From NCBI RefSeq assembly GCF_025210435.1, contig NZ_JAOART010000055.1, positions 1 through 33,909 on the forward strand: 33,909 nt of DNA, given 5' to 3'. Below, piece after piece: positions 28,460 to 33,668 of the stretch; the first letter of the stretch is position 1, and each line of letters opens with the position of its first letter. The stretch comes from Anaeromicrobium sp. GTDB lineage: Bacteria > Bacillota > Clostridia > Peptostreptococcales > Thermotaleaceae. Position numbers and translations under genes: made by a program. The notes beneath the pieces are model-generated. The model made no database searches. It saw only the letters and a list, made by a program, of their open reading frames with translations, and was not told the origin of the DNA.

Positions 28460-28538
28460 GCAATAATTTCTAAATCTATTGATGAATTTTGAATAATATG
28501 TCAATTTAGAAAAAAACAATTGTAAAAGGATGGAAAAC

Positions 28539-29303
28539 ATGGAAATATTACCACTAGTTATAGCTGCTTTTGTTAATATAGTTGCCAATACTTTTGTAAG
28601 TGTACCAGTAGCAGCTTCATCATCAGTAATGTTTATAATCCTTGCCATATTATTCGGTTTCTTTGTATATAGAAGGGGAATGCCCCTTGGTATTTCTAGT
28701 GTAATTGGTGTAGTACTTTTATTTGGATGTATAGTAATTGGAGTAAAGTTTCCATTAGTTTTATCTAAACAAGTATGGATATACATATTATTAGGATATA
28801 TATTTACTGCATCTGTAACTCCCGTTTGGATATTGTTACAACCAAGAGATTATTTGAACTCATTCTTATTATATACCATGCTTATAGGTGCCGTTTTAGG
28901 TATAGTAATATATAGACCAACTATACAATTACCAGCAGTTACATCTTTTAATGTGGGAGGAAAATTATTATTCCCTATGCTATTTGTAACTGTGGCCTGT
29001 GGAGCCATATCTGGATTCCTTTCATTAGTTGGATCAGCGAATCAATTACTAGCTGTACTGGCTTTAATAGCTGTTGCCGTATGGTTAAAGAAAAGTGGAA
29101 AGAACTATAAAATGTTCATAATTCCTATGATATTCATGTTAGCAGTAACTGTATTTGCACTAATATTACTTATTAAGCAAAATGTAGCCAGTGAAAATGC
29201 TGTAATAGTAATAGTACTGGTACTATTACTATTATTTGCATTAATATTAACTAAGGATGCCTATATGGTCTTTGCAAGTGATGATAAGGAGCATACAGTA
29301 TAA
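28539..29303 (+). CDS. Shortened CstA-like membrane protein, internally deleted
   Basis: The 254-aa protein has about seven membrane segments and carries recognisable pieces of the CstA peptide/pyruvate transporter family: WILLQPRDYLNSFLLYT, LFPMLFVTVACGAISGF, and SANQLLAVLALIAVAVWLKKSGK. Full CstA proteins are about 480-700 aa. Here the N-terminal third is absent, and the family's segment between ACGAISGF and the ANQLLA motif (including the usual HSLISSGT-like stretch) is missing, as if joined directly. The frame is nonetheless intact. ATG 28539 follows AAAAGGA at 28524-28530; ATG 28530 is too close to it. Transport function is doubtful. It may be a decayed relic or a diverged short form. 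Confidence 0.75.
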   Translation: MEILPLVIAAFVNIVANTFVSVPVAASSSVMFIILAILFGFFVYRRGMPLGISSVIGVVLLFGCIVIGVKFPLVLSKQVWIYILLGYIFTASVTPVWILLQPRDYLNSFLLYTMLIGAVLGIVIYRPTIQLPAVTSFNVGGKLLFPMLFVTVACGAISGFLSLVGSANQLLAVLALIAVAVWLKKSGKNYKMFIIPMIFMLAVTVFALILLIKQNVASENAVIVIVLVLLLLFALILTKDAYMVFASDDKEHTV

Positions 29304-29322
29304 AATTAAAAGGGTGTGGAAA
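29304..29322. repeat. Left direct repeat flanking the methyltransferase-MBL cassette
   Basis: AATTAAAAGGGTGTGGAAA lies directly after the CstA-like stop codon. It matches AATTGTAAGGGTGTGGAAA at 33631-33649 in 17 of 19 positions, with 13 identical bases in a row at its end. The right copy is the 5' arm of a terminator, so the left copy looks like half of the same terminator. Confidence 0.65.
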
Positions 29323-29699: not shown

Positions 29700-29728
29700 T
29701 TGACAAATGGTTTAATATATTATATATA
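29700..29728 (+). promoter_or_regulatory. Sigma-A-type promoter of the methyltransferase gene
   Basis: TTGACA (perfect consensus) at 29700-29705 and TATATA at 29723-29728 are separated by 17 bases. This gives the cassette its own constitutive-looking promoter inside the left direct repeat. Confidence 0.75.
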
Positions 29729-29760
29729 GGGAAATGATTCTAATTACAGGAGGTGATGAA

Positions 29761-32457
29761 ATGGCCAGTAATATACAATATTTAAATCAAATAAAAGATT
29801 GTTTGAATGAAGTTGGATACAATAATGAAAAAATTATAGACAATTATCCTGTTACAGTACAAGACAAAGTTATTTATTTTGATTTTGTTGCTTTTGGCCA
29901 CGACAAGGTTCAAGATACATCAACTTCGTGTATAGCAGTAAAATTTTGCAGTAACGAGCAGGAAGAAAATCAAGCAGTTGATGATACAAAATACAGTGCG
30001 GCACCTATACTTATAGTTCCTAAGAAAAGTGGAGTAAATATATGGAAGATAGATGTGGAAAAGAAATCAGATAATATATGGGAACTGCAGTATGATGAAT
30101 TAGGAGAATATTTTGCTCAAAATAGGGTGAAATTTAATTCTGATAAAATTGTATCATCTAAACAAGACTATGAACAGATGACTTTTTTTAATGCAGGTAA
30201 TCTTTTTAAATTTGCATCTAAAATTAATTGCAAGTTGTTAGGTGAAGAATTTAAAAATGCTATATATAATGCTAGAAAAAAGATAAATATAGATAATGAA
30301 GAGCAGGTTATGGATTTAACTAGTATAACAATGCACATAATTGCAGCAAAAATTCTTAATGATAAATTGTTGTTAGGTAAAAGATATGATGATATTCATG
30401 AAATTATAAATAGGTTATCAAATCAGTATAGTGATTATTTTAATAAGGAAAATTTATATAAGTATGGTATTGAATTAATAGATATCATATATAATAGTTT
30501 TAAGCAAAGTGTATCTTATAGAAGTATAGACAATAGAATTTTAGGTAGTTTTTATGAGAATACACTGTTTGAAAGTAATGAGGCAAAGAATAAAAAAATG
30601 AAAAGGGAGTTAGGCATATATTATACACCAACATCAATTGTGAATAATATGCTAAAAACAATGCCTATCGAATTTATAAATTATAAAGAGAGATTTGTAT
30701 TAGATGGTAGTTGTGGCTCGGGAAGTATGCTAATAGGTACATATAAAAGGTTAATAGAATTATTACCTAAGAAAATGAAAGATGAATTAAAACATAAATA
30801 TTTAACTGATATGATTTTGGGAATTGATATTGATAGGTTTGCATGTGAAGTTGCTAGATTAGAGATGCTATTAATAAGCATACCTTACGGTAATGGATGG
30901 AAAATAAAAAATAGTGATTTTACTGTAATTAATAATATGAAAGTTACTCCAAATATAATAATTGCAAATCCTCCATATCAGGAAAAAAGAAGTGGTAAGC
31001 AATTAGAGAAGGCAACGGGTTTTTTAGATAAGTATATTGATCTTTTATCTGATGATGGAATAATTGGTATAGTTATGCCTGAAGGTTTTCTTGAAAATAA
31101 TAGTGGAAGAGATACAAGATTAAAACTACTTACTAACATTGATATATATGAAATTTGGAGTTTACCAAAGGGGATATTTGATACTAATAACTGTGCAACG
31201 GTGGTTATTATCGGTAGAAAAGTAAAAAAAGGAAGTTTAATAGACACACCAATTAAGATTAGAATAGTAAATAAAAATTTAAGTTCAATTACTAAATTTA
31301 AAAGTCAGGGAATATTTGATTTTGATTTTGTTTATAGTTCACAGAAAGATTTAATCAGTAATAAAAATTATAAAATAATTTTTTCACCTGTAGATACTAT
31401 AATTAGAAAAATAGAGAGTAATAAAAAAATATGTGATTTTGTGGACTATACTCAAGGCATTCAAATACCCTTTAAATACGATTATCCTCTAGTATCGGAT
31501 GGTTATAAAGAAGGATATTCAAAATTTTTAAGAAATGCTAGATTAGGATTTGATAAATATAAGATTGAATGGTTAAAACAAGAACAATCTAAATATTTAA
31601 AATATGATCCTCATAATATTATTAATAGAGAGTTTAAAGGGTTAAGGCTCAGAGAAAGAAAAAGGAATTTACTTGAAGGAGTCAAAGTTATTTTTCATAT
31701 GAATTCAACGCCTGGTACGTTTTGGAGGACTAAAGCAGCAATAGATAGAGAAGGTATATATCCAAGTCATTCATTTTGGTGCTTTGTTCCTAAAGATAAT
31801 AGAATTTCTTTAGAAATAATAGTAGCATTAATGAACTCAAAAATTATAAACTTATATTTAGGAAACAAGAACAGGGCATTGAATATAAAAAGTGATAATT
31901 TTTTAAATGTACCAGTGCCTAATTTAGCAGAAACACAAAGATGTGAAATAGAGCAACTAGTTAGGAAAATAGAAAAAGAACAAGATAATGAGTCTAGTCT
32001 AAGAAGAATTGATGAATTATTTTATAGTGCTTTTAATTTGACTGATAGTGATATTGAATTAGTCAATGATTACTATTCTAAATTTACTGGTGAAAACAAT
32101 GTAAGAGATGTGTATATTAGGGAAGATACTATGGATACAATGGAGGTTACAGGAAAAACTATTGATGTGGATTTAGTTAATAACTATATAAAGGTAAAAT
32201 TTGTTGAATGTGAAGAATATAAATATATTAAGATTGATAACGAAATACCAGGATGGTTATTAAATAAAGATATTAAATTCGTAGGTAAATTAAAAGAAGA
32301 TGATTTCTACGAAGAAAATGTTTGTTTAAAAAATGTAAAGCCTCTTGATTTTACTTATCTTAACAATTCAGAATTTGATGATTTACTTTATAGTAATTTT
32401 AACGATTATAATATGACCAATTACAGTAATTGTGTATCCTTAGAAGGAGGTGCTTAA
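29761..32457 (+). CDS. Large N6-adenine DNA methyltransferase (Type IIG-like, TaqI-type target domain)
   Basis: The 898-aa SAM-dependent DNA adenine methyltransferase has YYTP (287-290), SAM motif I DGSCGSG (315-321), an acidic motif II region GIDIDRF, and catalytic motif IV NPPY (403-406). A putative TaqI-like target-recognition domain lies at about 540-720 (RLRERKRN, then HSFWCFVP). A further domain follows at about 740-898. The N-terminal 150 residues look like a helicase-free HsdR-N or PD-(D/E)xK-type fold (FDFVAFG, then SCIAVKF). The expected catalytic Glu or Asp before the Lys is an alanine-valine pair, so nuclease activity is doubtful. ATG 29761 follows AGGAGGTGAT. The next gene starts one base after the stop. 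Confidence 0.88.
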   Translation: MASNIQYLNQIKDCLNEVGYNNEKIIDNYPVTVQDKVIYFDFVAFGHDKVQDTSTSCIAVKFCSNEQEENQAVDDTKYSAAPILIVPKKSGVNIWKIDVEKKSDNIWELQYDELGEYFAQNRVKFNSDKIVSSKQDYEQMTFFNAGNLFKFASKINCKLLGEEFKNAIYNARKKINIDNEEQVMDLTSITMHIIAAKILNDKLLLGKRYDDIHEIINRLSNQYSDYFNKENLYKYGIELIDIIYNSFKQSVSYRSIDNRILGSFYENTLFESNEAKNKKMKRELGIYYTPTSIVNNMLKTMPIEFINYKERFVLDGSCGSGSMLIGTYKRLIELLPKKMKDELKHKYLTDMILGIDIDRFACEVARLEMLLISIPYGNGWKIKNSDFTVINNMKVTPNIIIANPPYQEKRSGKQLEKATGFLDKYIDLLSDDGIIGIVMPEGFLENNSGRDTRLKLLTNIDIYEIWSLPKGIFDTNNCATVVIIGRKVKKGSLIDTPIKIRIVNKNLSSITKFKSQGIFDFDFVYSSQKDLISNKNYKIIFSPVDTIIRKIESNKKICDFVDYTQGIQIPFKYDYPLVSDGYKEGYSKFLRNARLGFDKYKIEWLKQEQSKYLKYDPHNIINREFKGLRLRERKRNLLEGVKVIFHMNSTPGTFWRTKAAIDREGIYPSHSFWCFVPKDNRISLEIIVALMNSKIINLYLGNKNRALNIKSDNFLNVPVPNLAETQRCEIEQLVRKIEKEQDNESSLRRIDELFYSAFNLTDSDIELVNDYYSKFTGENNVRDVYIREDTMDTMEVTGKTIDVDLVNNYIKVKFVECEEYKYIKIDNEIPGWLLNKDIKFVGKLKEDDFYEENVCLKNVKPLDFTYLNNSEFDDLLYSNFNDYNMTNYSNCVSLEGGA

Positions 32458-32458
32458 T

Positions 32459-33496
32459 ATGGAAAAAGTATCTCCTTTAAGGATTGCATTTTTAGATGTT
32501 GGACATGGCGACTCTATTGTTATAACAATAACTGATAAAAAAGGAATAAACAGAGCAATTGTTGTTGATACACCAAATTCAATTAAAACTAAAAACTATA
32601 TTAAAAACAATAATGTAGATGTGATTGACTATATATTTATAACTCACTTTCATACAGATCACTACTCAGGAATAAATTCATTAGTAGAGTCGTTGGTAAG
32701 CGAAGGGATAGAAGTGAAAAATATTTGTTGGGAGAAGGACAAGGTTTTGAGAACAGAAGACGAGCAAACGAATTATGCGTTATTTACAACAAAGTTATTT
32801 CAAAATCATCTTAAATTAGGGATAGGGTGTATTTCTAAGAAGTTTGATAATAATGAATATAAAAACTTATATATGGATGATGTTGACGGAGTTAAAATTA
32901 GAATAATATATCCTAATACTCTTGCTTCAAATAGTGTTATTGGTAAAAATATAAATAATACATCTACCGTGTTGAAAATTGAATATAATGGAATTAAAGT
33001 AATATTACCAGGCGATTTGGAAGGGGAAGGATGGAATTTTCTTAAAAGTTATATTGAAGATAAAGAGTTGATTAAATGTGATGTTTTAAAAATGCCTCAC
33101 CATGGTGATTATTTTAACAAGAAAGTTAATTCTATAGATACAAAGGAAATAATTGATTTAACAGATCCAAGTTATGCAATAATTTCTACAGCAAACAATA
33201 AATTATATAATCATCCTGATAAGGATACTATAAAATATTTAAAGGATAAAGATATAAATATTTTTTGTACCCAGGTTACAGATGAATGTACAAGCGATAG
33301 ACTTGATAAGAGGAACAGTATCTTAGAAAAATTAAATGTAGAAACTAAAAAATATAATAAAAACTGGTGTCCTTGTATGGGAGATGTAGTAATAGAAATT
33401 GATCAAGAATTAAGACTAATTTCACATAAACCATGTATGATAGAAGAACTTAAAAAGGCGTTTAGTAACCCTTTGTGCATGAGCGGGAATTGTTAA
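32459..33496 (+). CDS. Cytoplasmic ComEC-like metallo-beta-lactamase fold hydrolase
   Basis: The 345-aa protein has no signal peptide or membrane segment. It begins PLRIAFLDVGHGDSIVI as in the ComEC/Rec2 MBL domain. The metal motif THFHTDH (H63, H65, D67, H68), PGD (D186), MPHHG (H214/H215) and the ISTANNKLYNHP motif (H252) are all intact, so hydrolase activity is plausible, most likely on nucleic acid or a nucleotide. The C-terminal 80 residues are rich in cysteine (FC, EC, CPC, PC, LC and a final C), a possible extra metal site. AAGGAGGTG at 32444-32452 precedes ATG 32459. It is tightly coupled to the methyltransferase and may be its partner nuclease. Confidence 0.88.
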   Translation: MEKVSPLRIAFLDVGHGDSIVITITDKKGINRAIVVDTPNSIKTKNYIKNNNVDVIDYIFITHFHTDHYSGINSLVESLVSEGIEVKNICWEKDKVLRTEDEQTNYALFTTKLFQNHLKLGIGCISKKFDNNEYKNLYMDDVDGVKIRIIYPNTLASNSVIGKNINNTSTVLKIEYNGIKVILPGDLEGEGWNFLKSYIEDKELIKCDVLKMPHHGDYFNKKVNSIDTKEIIDLTDPSYAIISTANNKLYNHPDKDTIKYLKDKDINIFCTQVTDECTSDRLDKRNSILEKLNVETKKYNKNWCPCMGDVVIEIDQELRLISHKPCMIEELKKAFSNPLCMSGNC

Positions 33497-33630
33497 GAAG
33501 TAAGAAGATTAATACTTTAGAAGTATTGTTAAATTTTCCTGTTATGATCCGAAACAACACGTAGATAAATTCTAAATTGATATTTGGATAGGTTATACTT
33601 AATTAGATAATAACTATTCGGACGTGATAG

Positions 33631-33649
33631 AATTGTAAGGGTGTGGAAA
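33631..33649. repeat. Right direct repeat flanking the methyltransferase-MBL cassette
   Basis: AATTGTAAGGGTGTGGAAA pairs in direct orientation with the copy at 29304-29322 (17 of 19). It forms the left arm of the terminator at 33637-33668. The two copies frame 4.3 kb that holds only the two cassette genes. Confidence 0.65.
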
Positions 33650-33668
33650 AAATCCACACCCTTTTATT
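33637..33668 (+). terminator. Rho-independent terminator after the MBL gene
   Basis: Arms AAGGGTGTGGA (33637-33647) and TCCACACCCTT enclose an A-rich loop, followed by TTATTTG. Because its left arm equals the sequence after the CstA-like stop, it may originally have been the terminator of that gene. Confidence 0.85.

Follow-up and report, generated by a model that had tools for sequence, protein, structure and literature searches.

An adenine methyltransferase gene and the MBL gene that directly follows it form a rare but recurrent unit, found at five loci: the window (the whole stretch of 33,909 nucleotides analysed here), a Clostridium MAG, another genome of the phylum, a Pseudanabaena plasmid and an IMG/VR contig. 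From the domains of the two proteins and the partners of their relatives, we favour, with a little less than even confidence, the view that the pair is a small mobile module, directed against foreign DNA or serving addiction, whose sequence-specific adenine methyltransferase would control a toxic effector. The features on which this view draws lie in the window as follows.

29300–29322, forward strand: left copy of a 23-nt imperfect direct repeat (87%, family D4), at the insertion border
29700–29728, forward strand: candidate −35/−10 pair TTGACA-17-TATATA (TTGACA at 29700, 17 nt, TATATA at 29723), picked by eye and not above chance
29761–32457, forward strand: N6-adenine DNA methyltransferase of type IIG-like layout, 898 aa (open reading frame, ribosome-binding site, Pfam, motifs)
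29803–30069, forward strand: N-terminal HSDR_N_2-like domain, weakly assigned (Pfam match below cut-off; motif IAVK by eye, with Ala for the nuclease Glu)
30535–31230, forward strand: N6_Mtase catalytic domain (Pfam)
31555–31872, forward strand: TaqI_C-like target recognition domain (Pfam, 30.5 bits against a cut-off of 26.5)
32116–32454, forward strand: C-terminal domain (CTD) of MBL-paired methyltransferases only, a proposed effector-docking domain (held-out HMMs, plasmid tblastn, genome search)
32459–33496, forward strand: soluble ComEC-type MBL-fold hydrolase, 345 aa (H63xH65xD67H68, N166, D186, H214-H215)
33627–33649, forward strand: right-hand counterpart of the repeat at 29300–29322 (family D4)
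33637–33663, forward strand: intrinsic terminator 3′ of the MBL gene, counterpart of the cstA terminator at the uninterrupted site of G001

The original prediction had described two adjacent genes one base apart, behind a single promoter and with no further partner. Both open reading frames are indeed present, with the methyltransferase stop codon at 32455–32457 and the MBL start codon at 32459, and no other recognisable defence gene adjoins the pair in the window, which reaches the contig end (33909). We prefer ATG 29761 to the start at 29734 in the ORF list because AGGAGG (29748–29753) sits 5′ of it; GGAGG likewise lies upstream of the MBL ATG. The promoter is another matter: the TTGACA-17-TATATA site is plausible by eye, but a scan counted 30 such sites where 38.0 were expected, and hence no excess. 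For the terminator, one was found against a shuffle mean of 0.5 (sd 0.5). The pair is carried on a low-GC insertion of about 4.3 kb that splits a terminator, and this terminator is intact in a genome of the same genus. Counting this insertion, the settings of the pair in mobile DNA include a transposon-rich plasmid and the IMG/VR contig.

The two proteins and the C-terminal domain

The methyltransferase has the catalytic motifs that had been read from its sequence, with Pfam matches over cut-off to N6_Mtase (80.8 bits), Eco57I (38.7), TaqI_C (30.5) and MmeI_Mtase (29.3) and with GSCGSGS and NPPY both visible. Its N-terminal nuclease-like region had been said to lack the usual acidic residue, and by eye this is so: the Asp is kept and Ala replaces the Glu of ExK, within a domain whose HSDR_N-like assignment is itself weak. 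Specifically, PF13588 (HSDR_N_2) matches the N-terminus below the Pfam cut-off throughout (E 0.002 in the window, 0.004 in L019, 8e-5 in L047), the unrelated Meth_synt_1 scores similarly on the same piece of the window protein (E 0.0019), and a Pfam scan gave no HSDR_N_2 match in the methyltransferases of L050, L038, L039, L040 and L041. Read by eye, the Glu position holds Ala, Ser or Gly in all seven methyltransferases with an alignable motif (Ala in the window, L047 and L050; Ser in L019), while the Lys is kept, among the MBL-paired methyltransferases, only in the window and L019, L038 not being alignable there. On such alignments, the methyltransferase's own nuclease-like domain looks eroded or dead.

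The MBL protein matches Lactamase_B over cut-off (30.6 bits) and the ComEC MBL domain with a profile–profile probability of 100 (E 1.6e-40). The concern that its homologues might be a metabolic enzyme did not materialise, as the protein aligns with ComEC-type MBL domains and not with metabolic MBLs, and the predicted absence of a membrane part, unlike in ComEC, holds over its 345 aa, in which there is no membrane-like stretch (top 19-residue Kyte-Doolittle mean 1.1). The claim that every expected metal motif is present is right in the ComEC sense only, motif III being an invariant asparagine (Asn166) and not His. Asn in place of His in this motif is a feature of ComEC, and a purified ComEC domain of the same fold has Mn-dependent nuclease activity (both in the available portion of PMC8579336); we regard the MBL protein as a putative DNase. 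An MBL search of 199 relatives, the window's genome included, gave matches at E≤1e-15 in 15; apart from the window's own, the 14 are 28–35% identical, and the length of their open frames marks them as ComEC or solo MBLs.

The CTD, of about 110 aa, is present in all five MBL-paired methyltransferases, in each case with the MBL gene directly 3′ of it. Held-out HMMs score it at 26–52 bits in these five proteins and in no other ORF of 67 records, and with filters off the full model's best outside match is 8.7 bits (E 0.31). When the CTD was searched by tblastn against 72,556 plasmid records, the Pseudanabaena methyltransferase ranked first, with weak E values of 0.7 and 0.2; in 398 genomes of the phylum its profile found the window's genome and G384, plus a 17-bit stretch in G506 (E 0.009). 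Neither the plasmid nor the genome searches gave a clear match outside these methyltransferases or a convincing stand-alone CTD protein. No Pfam family scores over cut-off on the CTD of any of the five, and the piece from the window matches none at all. Kinship with the OB domain of ComEC, in which an OB fold is present (available part of PMC12455585), was considered and rejected (hhalign probability 0.1).

Recurrence of the pair and its distant relatives

The expectation that the pair would be conserved in other genomes was borne out, in that an MBL gene adjoins all five CTD-bearing methyltransferases found, at spacings of 1, 2, 5 (or a 4-nt overlap with an earlier ATG), −4 and −4 nt. As to defence islands, the Clostridium MAG copy adjoins, by reading of the ORFs, a putative type I restriction-modification locus; in the window no such neighbour is recognisable. 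A search with methyltransferase profiles at a strict E value, which scored no more than two candidates per genome, picked out only the window's genome and G384 among 398 genomes, and only the window's genome among 391; the scan of genome contigs used short peptide patterns, which reach close relatives only. One further locus (L020) has the MBL without a methyltransferase, the MBL having lost its first residues, and its left side is unlike that of L019.

In an MBL tree of 44 rows, from which duplicates (L001, L003, L046, L059, L060, L061), the fragmentary L018 and one weak ORF, the second in L043, were left out, one clade (100/96) unites the window, L019, L020 and L047; the branches of L038 and L050 are long and unresolved. 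A single supported MBL clade for all pairs was rejected, since these last two fall outside the supported group. Held-out models were also used for scoring. Those for the MBL set the window, L019, L047 and L038 apart from ComEC and solo MBLs, but they do not separate L050, which scores below a ComEC (102.5 against 110.9 bits); those for the whole methyltransferase separate the window, L019, L047 and L050 (242 against 216 bits) from the PIN type described below but not L038, which scores below the PIN-type L039 (222.6 against 252.1 bits). In viral contigs, the methyltransferase alignment found nine loci, with an MBL match in L050 alone, and MBL alignments found no relatives in one scan and six in another, these being L050's own contig and five without a match to the methyltransferase model. 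With L050 as the query, the viral contigs returned L050 only.

Distant methyltransferases of the same layout appear, from their gene neighbours, to swap the effector slot. In relatives without the CTD, the position of the MBL gene is taken by a PIN gene (n=2) or a RES toxin gene (n=1); all three are plasmid loci of Rhizobiaceae, and their methyltransferases are about 20–25% identical to those of the window and L047. Used as queries, these proteins had no match in the viral contigs and none at E≤0.001 in a PDB profile search. The C-terminus of the RES-linked methyltransferase (L040) matches stand-alone Xre/MbcA/ParS antitoxins (28–37% identity among the matches listed, E down to 2e-17), and a RES gene lies next to such a stand-alone antitoxin in all three neighbourhoods opened. 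Judged by these matches, the last part of the L040 methyltransferase is the antitoxin domain usually found with RES; the tail of the PIN-type enzymes has no Pfam match.

Proposed mechanism and its rivals

In the module that we favour, the methyltransferase would, judging by its domains, recognise and methylate its own site. Because the fused nuclease-like domain looks dead, any damage to DNA would fall to the partner. The CTD may dock the ComEC-type MBL and keep it inactive for as long as the methyltransferase finds methylated host DNA, and foreign DNA that is unmethylated, or that blocks the methyltransferase, would release or activate the MBL nuclease; an MBL defence nuclease held inactive until triggered is described in the accessible text of PMC12799240. 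In the distant methyltransferases the slot would be filled by PIN, or by RES, in which case the methyltransferase itself carries the corresponding antitoxin domain as a fusion. It is possible, and we put this forward tentatively, that all of these belong to one family of toxins guarded by a methyltransferase. The methyltransferase would combine a dead nuclease-like domain with a swappable C-terminal antitoxin or docking domain that matches an equally swappable effector (MBL DNase, PIN RNase or NAD-attacking RES toxin), for which the methylation state of DNA or an attack on the methyltransferase would be the trigger. Such a family, if real, would be part restriction-modification and part toxin-antitoxin system, a hybrid linking two large classes of defence and addiction through a modification enzyme that is both antitoxin and sensor, and adenine methyltransferases would join the partners reported for ComEC-like MBL nucleases (Hachiman, AVAST, Lamassu and DRT, in the part of PMC12799240 available). 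If the effector is modular, its type would therefore be predictable from the C-terminal domain. With two genes, the system is small enough for quick laboratory study.

The main rival to a swappable effector is strict restriction, which we consider a serious contender, if a somewhat doubtful one. The pair would then be a two-subunit restriction-modification system, the methyltransferase supplying specificity and modification and the CTD-tethered MBL acting as the endonuclease against unmethylated DNA in place of the dead HSDR_N-like domain. The same five loci and the same lost Glu speak for this, as do the type IIG-like methyltransferase with TaqI_C, an MBL fold with known nuclease activity and the restriction locus beside the Clostridium copy; against it stand the sister methyltransferases paired with PIN or RES. 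PIN is an RNase fold, and to our knowledge neither PIN nor RES is known as a DNA endonuclease, nor is the known ComEC nuclease sequence-specific. The PIN and RES genes in this slot speak for toxin-antitoxin-like control no less than for restriction, and L040 lends the former indirect support.

It is improbable that the methyltransferase is an orphan regulatory enzyme like CamA and that the MBL has another role, for instance in DNA or nucleotide processing, with co-transfer as their only tie. Among the solved methyltransferases closest by profile are 8cxz and 7lni, aligned over the methyltransferase and recognition domains, which we take to be CamA. However, the pair occurs with its own CTD in two named phyla, plus two further genomes or contigs, its contexts are mobile, and the best PADLOC matches of the MBL are LmuA and RTasMBL. 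Very unlikely indeed is a decaying or neutral insertion within a damaged region, as the neighbouring cstA remnant (28530–29303, without its start and an internal part relative to a 536-aa homologue) might suggest, for neither gene of the pair is truncated when compared with its relatives, and both have the expected motifs and a ribosome-binding site.

Comparison with known systems

Just as little credence can be given to membership in a named system, although partial or sub-threshold matches exist to 6A-MBL, PDC-M48, Lamassu, AVAST, DRT-MBL, MADS and BREX. No NCBIfam model is over cut-off on any of ten proteins scanned, and the scores fall far below (Avs1a 31.6 against 420 bits, MAD2 39.9 against 720). 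PADLOC, which gives no cut-offs, matches generic methyltransferases, LmuA (62.9 bits on the MBL, best stretch 7–102), RTasMBL and PDC-M48B (42.8 bits on the window MBL) in part. Lamassu and AVAST type 1 combine the MBL family with partners, and no further gene stands beside our pair.

Like the window MBL, 6A-MBL (NF058524) is an MBL-fold protein, one named anti-phage. Its model, with a cut-off of 220 bits, scores 25.3 in the window, 28.5 in L047, 44.2 in L050 and 36.2 in L019, with no match in L038 at E≤1e-5. It is over cut-off in one of 299 genomes, and because Prok-E2_A, ThiF and Prok-JAB, as well as patatin, are encoded beside the MBL in G384, we take it to be a different system, in which the MBL of this locus is partnered by an E2-E1-JAB protein and not by an adenine methyltransferase. 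That this neighbour defines 6A-MBL we infer from the one G384 locus; a reading of the name as N6-adenine methyltransferase plus MBL was rejected on the same neighbours, and "6A" presumably derives from ubiquitin-like classification. PDC-M48 as a methyltransferase–MBL pair was likewise unsupported by its two matches in 119 genomes: in L089 the MBL has beside it a 215-aa protein with apparent hydrophobic stretches, a partner absent from the window, and in L090, which is cut by a contig edge, the stretch immediately 5′ of the MBL holds no ORF of 100 aa.

Among the titles and abstract openings listed by a literature search on the pair and its parts, with subscription papers and bioRxiv outside its scope, none describes the pair, and to that extent the novelty proposed for it survives; MBL nucleases, however, are already known as defence effectors in Hachiman, AVAST, Lamassu and DRT (PMC12799240, in the text available). 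HamM-type MBL nucleases with a trypsin-like protease (same portion of PMC12799240) share with the window a soluble ComEC-type MBL as defence effector, but here the sole adjoining gene is the methyltransferase, with no protease in its Pfam scan. As in type IIG restriction-modification, a nuclease-type N-terminus (a weak match), an N6-adenine methyltransferase with SAM and NPPY motifs and a TaqI_C-like recognition domain share one chain; in contrast, an active PD-(D/E)xK nuclease is missing by eye, the nuclease Glu being lost, and the window adds a CTD to the chain and has an MBL encoded by a gene of its own. The MBL belongs to the same subfamily as that of ComEC/Rec2, with Asn in motif III, and differs from it in having no membrane channel part, three additional conserved Cys (C270, C277, C306) and HxHxDH, where L047 and L050 have the ComEC form HxDxDH. 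Lastly, a Pfam scan of the window CTD gives no match to Xre/MbcA/ParS, and the partner here is an MBL, but the distant relative L040 resembles Xre-RES toxin-antitoxin systems in its antitoxin-type C-terminal domain with RES next door.

The gene pair and its setting

As originally predicted, the two genes are one base apart.

Genes of the pair in the window
29761-32457: N6-adenine methyltransferase (MTase) gene, 898 aa, strong ribosome-binding site
32459-33496: gene for a ComEC-type metallo-beta-lactamase-fold protein (MBL), 345 aa, strong ribosome-binding site

A terminator lies 3′ of the MBL gene, 246 bases short of the contig end. The MTase begins with an HSDR_N_2-like domain (weak, below the Pfam cut-off), continues with an N6-adenine MTase domain and a TaqI_C-like target recognition domain, both above cut-off, and ends in ~110 amino acids without a match in a Pfam scan. 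The MBL exceeds the Lactamase_B cut-off and is soluble by hydropathy, consistent with the claim that it has no membrane part.

The original prediction turned on conservation of the pair in other genomes; it recurs, but is rare. A pattern-based search with the window MBL, run over 84,980 species genomes, found 19 relatives, the two closest being those of L019, a Clostridium MAG (54%), and L020 (53%). L019 has a full 894-aa MTase, 56% identical to that of the window and two bases upstream of the MBL, and L020 has an MBL without its first residues and no MTase; the right-hand neighbours of these two loci match, and the left side differs. Their common right side is read as a type I RM locus, and at L020 3079-5133 the MBL adjoins genes reading like drug resistance. 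A Pseudanabaena galeata plasmid (L038) carries both genes, overlapping by 4 nt; the MTase profile found one further genome, G384, among 398 of the phylum, with the MBL directly downstream (L047); and the fifth pair is on an IMG/VR contig (L050). No more pairs came from the class-wide MTase search, where the window's genome alone matched (1 of 391), or from the class of G384, where the one match among ten genomes was G384 itself; the searches of the 398 phylum and 391 class genomes scored at most two candidates per genome. Upstream of the pair, L019 (947-4188) has an adenylosuccinate-synthetase-like gene (Pfam PF00709) and two further genes, one of them with no Pfam match; directly upstream are a small MerR-type regulator gene in L038 (5709-6182) and, in L047 (4658-5089), the gene for a 143-aa protein without a Pfam match that is ribbon-helix-helix-like by eye.

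Sequence comparison places the pair in an insertion, a call made against one relative, the same-genus genome G001, on a contig that stops soon 3′ of the pair. In G001 an uninterrupted terminator hairpin comes immediately after the cstA stop codon, ahead of a gene read as MerR-type; in the window the same terminator is split, its first part following a cstA remnant, with ~4.3 kb including the pair and then a full terminator copy. Both borders carry a 23-nt imperfect direct repeat, and similarity extends ~40 bases further downstream. GC is 26.8% in the inserted stretch versus 32.7% for window 1-28429, and GC3, which averages 23.8 (sd 2.4) over 16 other ORFs, is 17.2 for the MTase and 20.8 for the MBL. 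The remnant of the cstA-like permease (28530-29303) lacks the start and an internal part of its 536-aa G001 homologue, and the window also lacks a 169-aa gene that G001 has between cysS and cstA (both gene names are by reading).

Terminal domains of the methyltransferases

Held-out whole-protein scores do not set MBL-paired and PIN-paired MTases cleanly apart, that of L038 falling below that of the PIN-paired L039. The C-terminal domain (CTD) of ~110 amino acids does separate them. Models from which the tested member was left out (window and L019 together when either was tested) recovered the CTD in all five MBL-paired MTases, with scores of 26 to 52 bits, and matched none of the other ORFs in the 67 records searched; the best outside match of the full model, run without filters, reached 8.7 bits (E 0.31). 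By tblastn against all plasmid records, the L047 CTD matched the Pseudanabaena MTase alone (E 0.7), and the L050 CTD matched it first (E 0.2), followed by four weaker matches (E 2 to 5). Across the 398 phylum genomes, the CTD profile matched G384 and the genome of the window, and gave a single 17-bit match in G506. A Hymenobacter plasmid (L043 2877-8011) encodes an N-6 MTase, a protein with two HATPase matches, a 227-aa protein and an MBL; the CTD model found no match beyond chance in this cluster.

The N-terminal domain is likely, although not proven, to be HSDR_N-like, because Pfam matches this domain in three of eight pieces (window, L019, L047), all below cut-off, and an unrelated family scores equally in the window piece. 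Reading an eight-way MTase alignment by eye shows the motif Asp aligned in 5/5 MBL-paired MTases. At the Glu position of ExK, where L038 is not alignable, L019 has Ser and the window, L047 and L050 have Ala, and the Lys is kept in the window and L019 only; in the three PIN/RES-type MTases the Asp is lost and the Glu position is Ala, Gly and Ala. The prediction that the nuclease-like region lacks its usual acidic residue agrees with this reading by eye of a domain whose identity is likely and which looks eroded.

Partner genes and a candidate mechanism

Distant relatives of the MTase, ~20-25% identical and without the CTD, have other genes in the MBL slot: a PIN-domain gene on Agrobacterium and Sinorhizobium plasmids, and a RES-domain gene on a Rhizobium plasmid.

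Distant relatives with other partners
L039 6992-9987: PIN-paired sister MTase
L041 6773-9775: PIN-paired sister MTase
L040 6989-10407: RES-paired Rhizobium plasmid MTase, RES gene overlapping by 4 bases

At its C-terminus the L040 MTase is extended by a part that matches Xre/MbcA/ParS antitoxin domains in Pfam below threshold. This MTase appears to have acquired an antitoxin domain next to its toxin, because the part matches stand-alone antitoxins (28-37% identity, E to 2e-17, among the 25 listed of 184 records matched by tblastn) and RES is the next gene in all three of the antitoxin neighbourhoods opened. The PIN-type MTase tail resembles a short antitoxin tail by eye only and matches no Pfam family, and in the plasmid collection the L039 PIN matches nothing but itself and the L041 PIN. 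A gene annotated as having a Shedu SduA domain lies near the L039 MTase.

Among solved structures, the ComEC MBL domains in 9ic4 and 30bt are the nearest to the window MBL by profile, and the window MBL aligns with the ComEC MBL domains of relatives at probability 100. Motif III is Asn, and motif II is HxHxDH in the window, L019 and L038 and HxDxDH in L047 and L050; PMC8579336 describes the Asn for ComEC, gives HxDxDH as the ComEC form and reports the purified domain to be a Mn-dependent nuclease. Cysteines 270, 277 and 306, near the C-terminus, are common to all five MBLs. We infer that the pair MBL is a DNase.

We tentatively favour an MTase-guarded toxin, in which the CTD would hold the MBL in check and foreign DNA that is unmethylated or inhibits the MTase would set it free. 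Strict restriction, the model of the original prediction, in which the MBL is the restriction nuclease beside a self-contained MTase, is possible but less probable; like the guarded toxin, it depends on the MBL being a DNase. Against it, the distant relatives pair with RES, with an apparent antitoxin domain fused to the MTase, or with PIN, effectors that are not known to cut DNA. The guarded toxin is preferred for this reason, an argument drawn from a small sample of MTases, all from one bacterial family and remotely related to the window MTase.

Relation to known systems

Comparison with already described systems returned no full match within its scope: across the five pairs, none of the ten proteins scores above the cut-off of an NCBIfam model, and a literature search, with most subscription papers and bioRxiv preprints beyond its reach, found no description of an MTase–MBL pair among the papers listed. 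PADLOC gave partial matches, without cut-offs, on the pair proteins, those of the MBL being to LmuA, RTasMBL and PDC-M48B. '6A-MBL' is a different system. A locus of the 6A-MBL type is present in G384 (L048 1-4328 and L049 8834-9275), with MBL parts at two contig ends, one of which adjoins E2/ThiF/JAB and patatin genes.

We file the pair with MBL-effector defence or restriction-like modules. According to PMC12799240, Hachiman, AVAST, Lamassu and DRT systems have taken up ComEC-like MBL nucleases, one of which, HamM, stays inactive until a fused protease cleaves it; the window pair has no adjoining protease gene.
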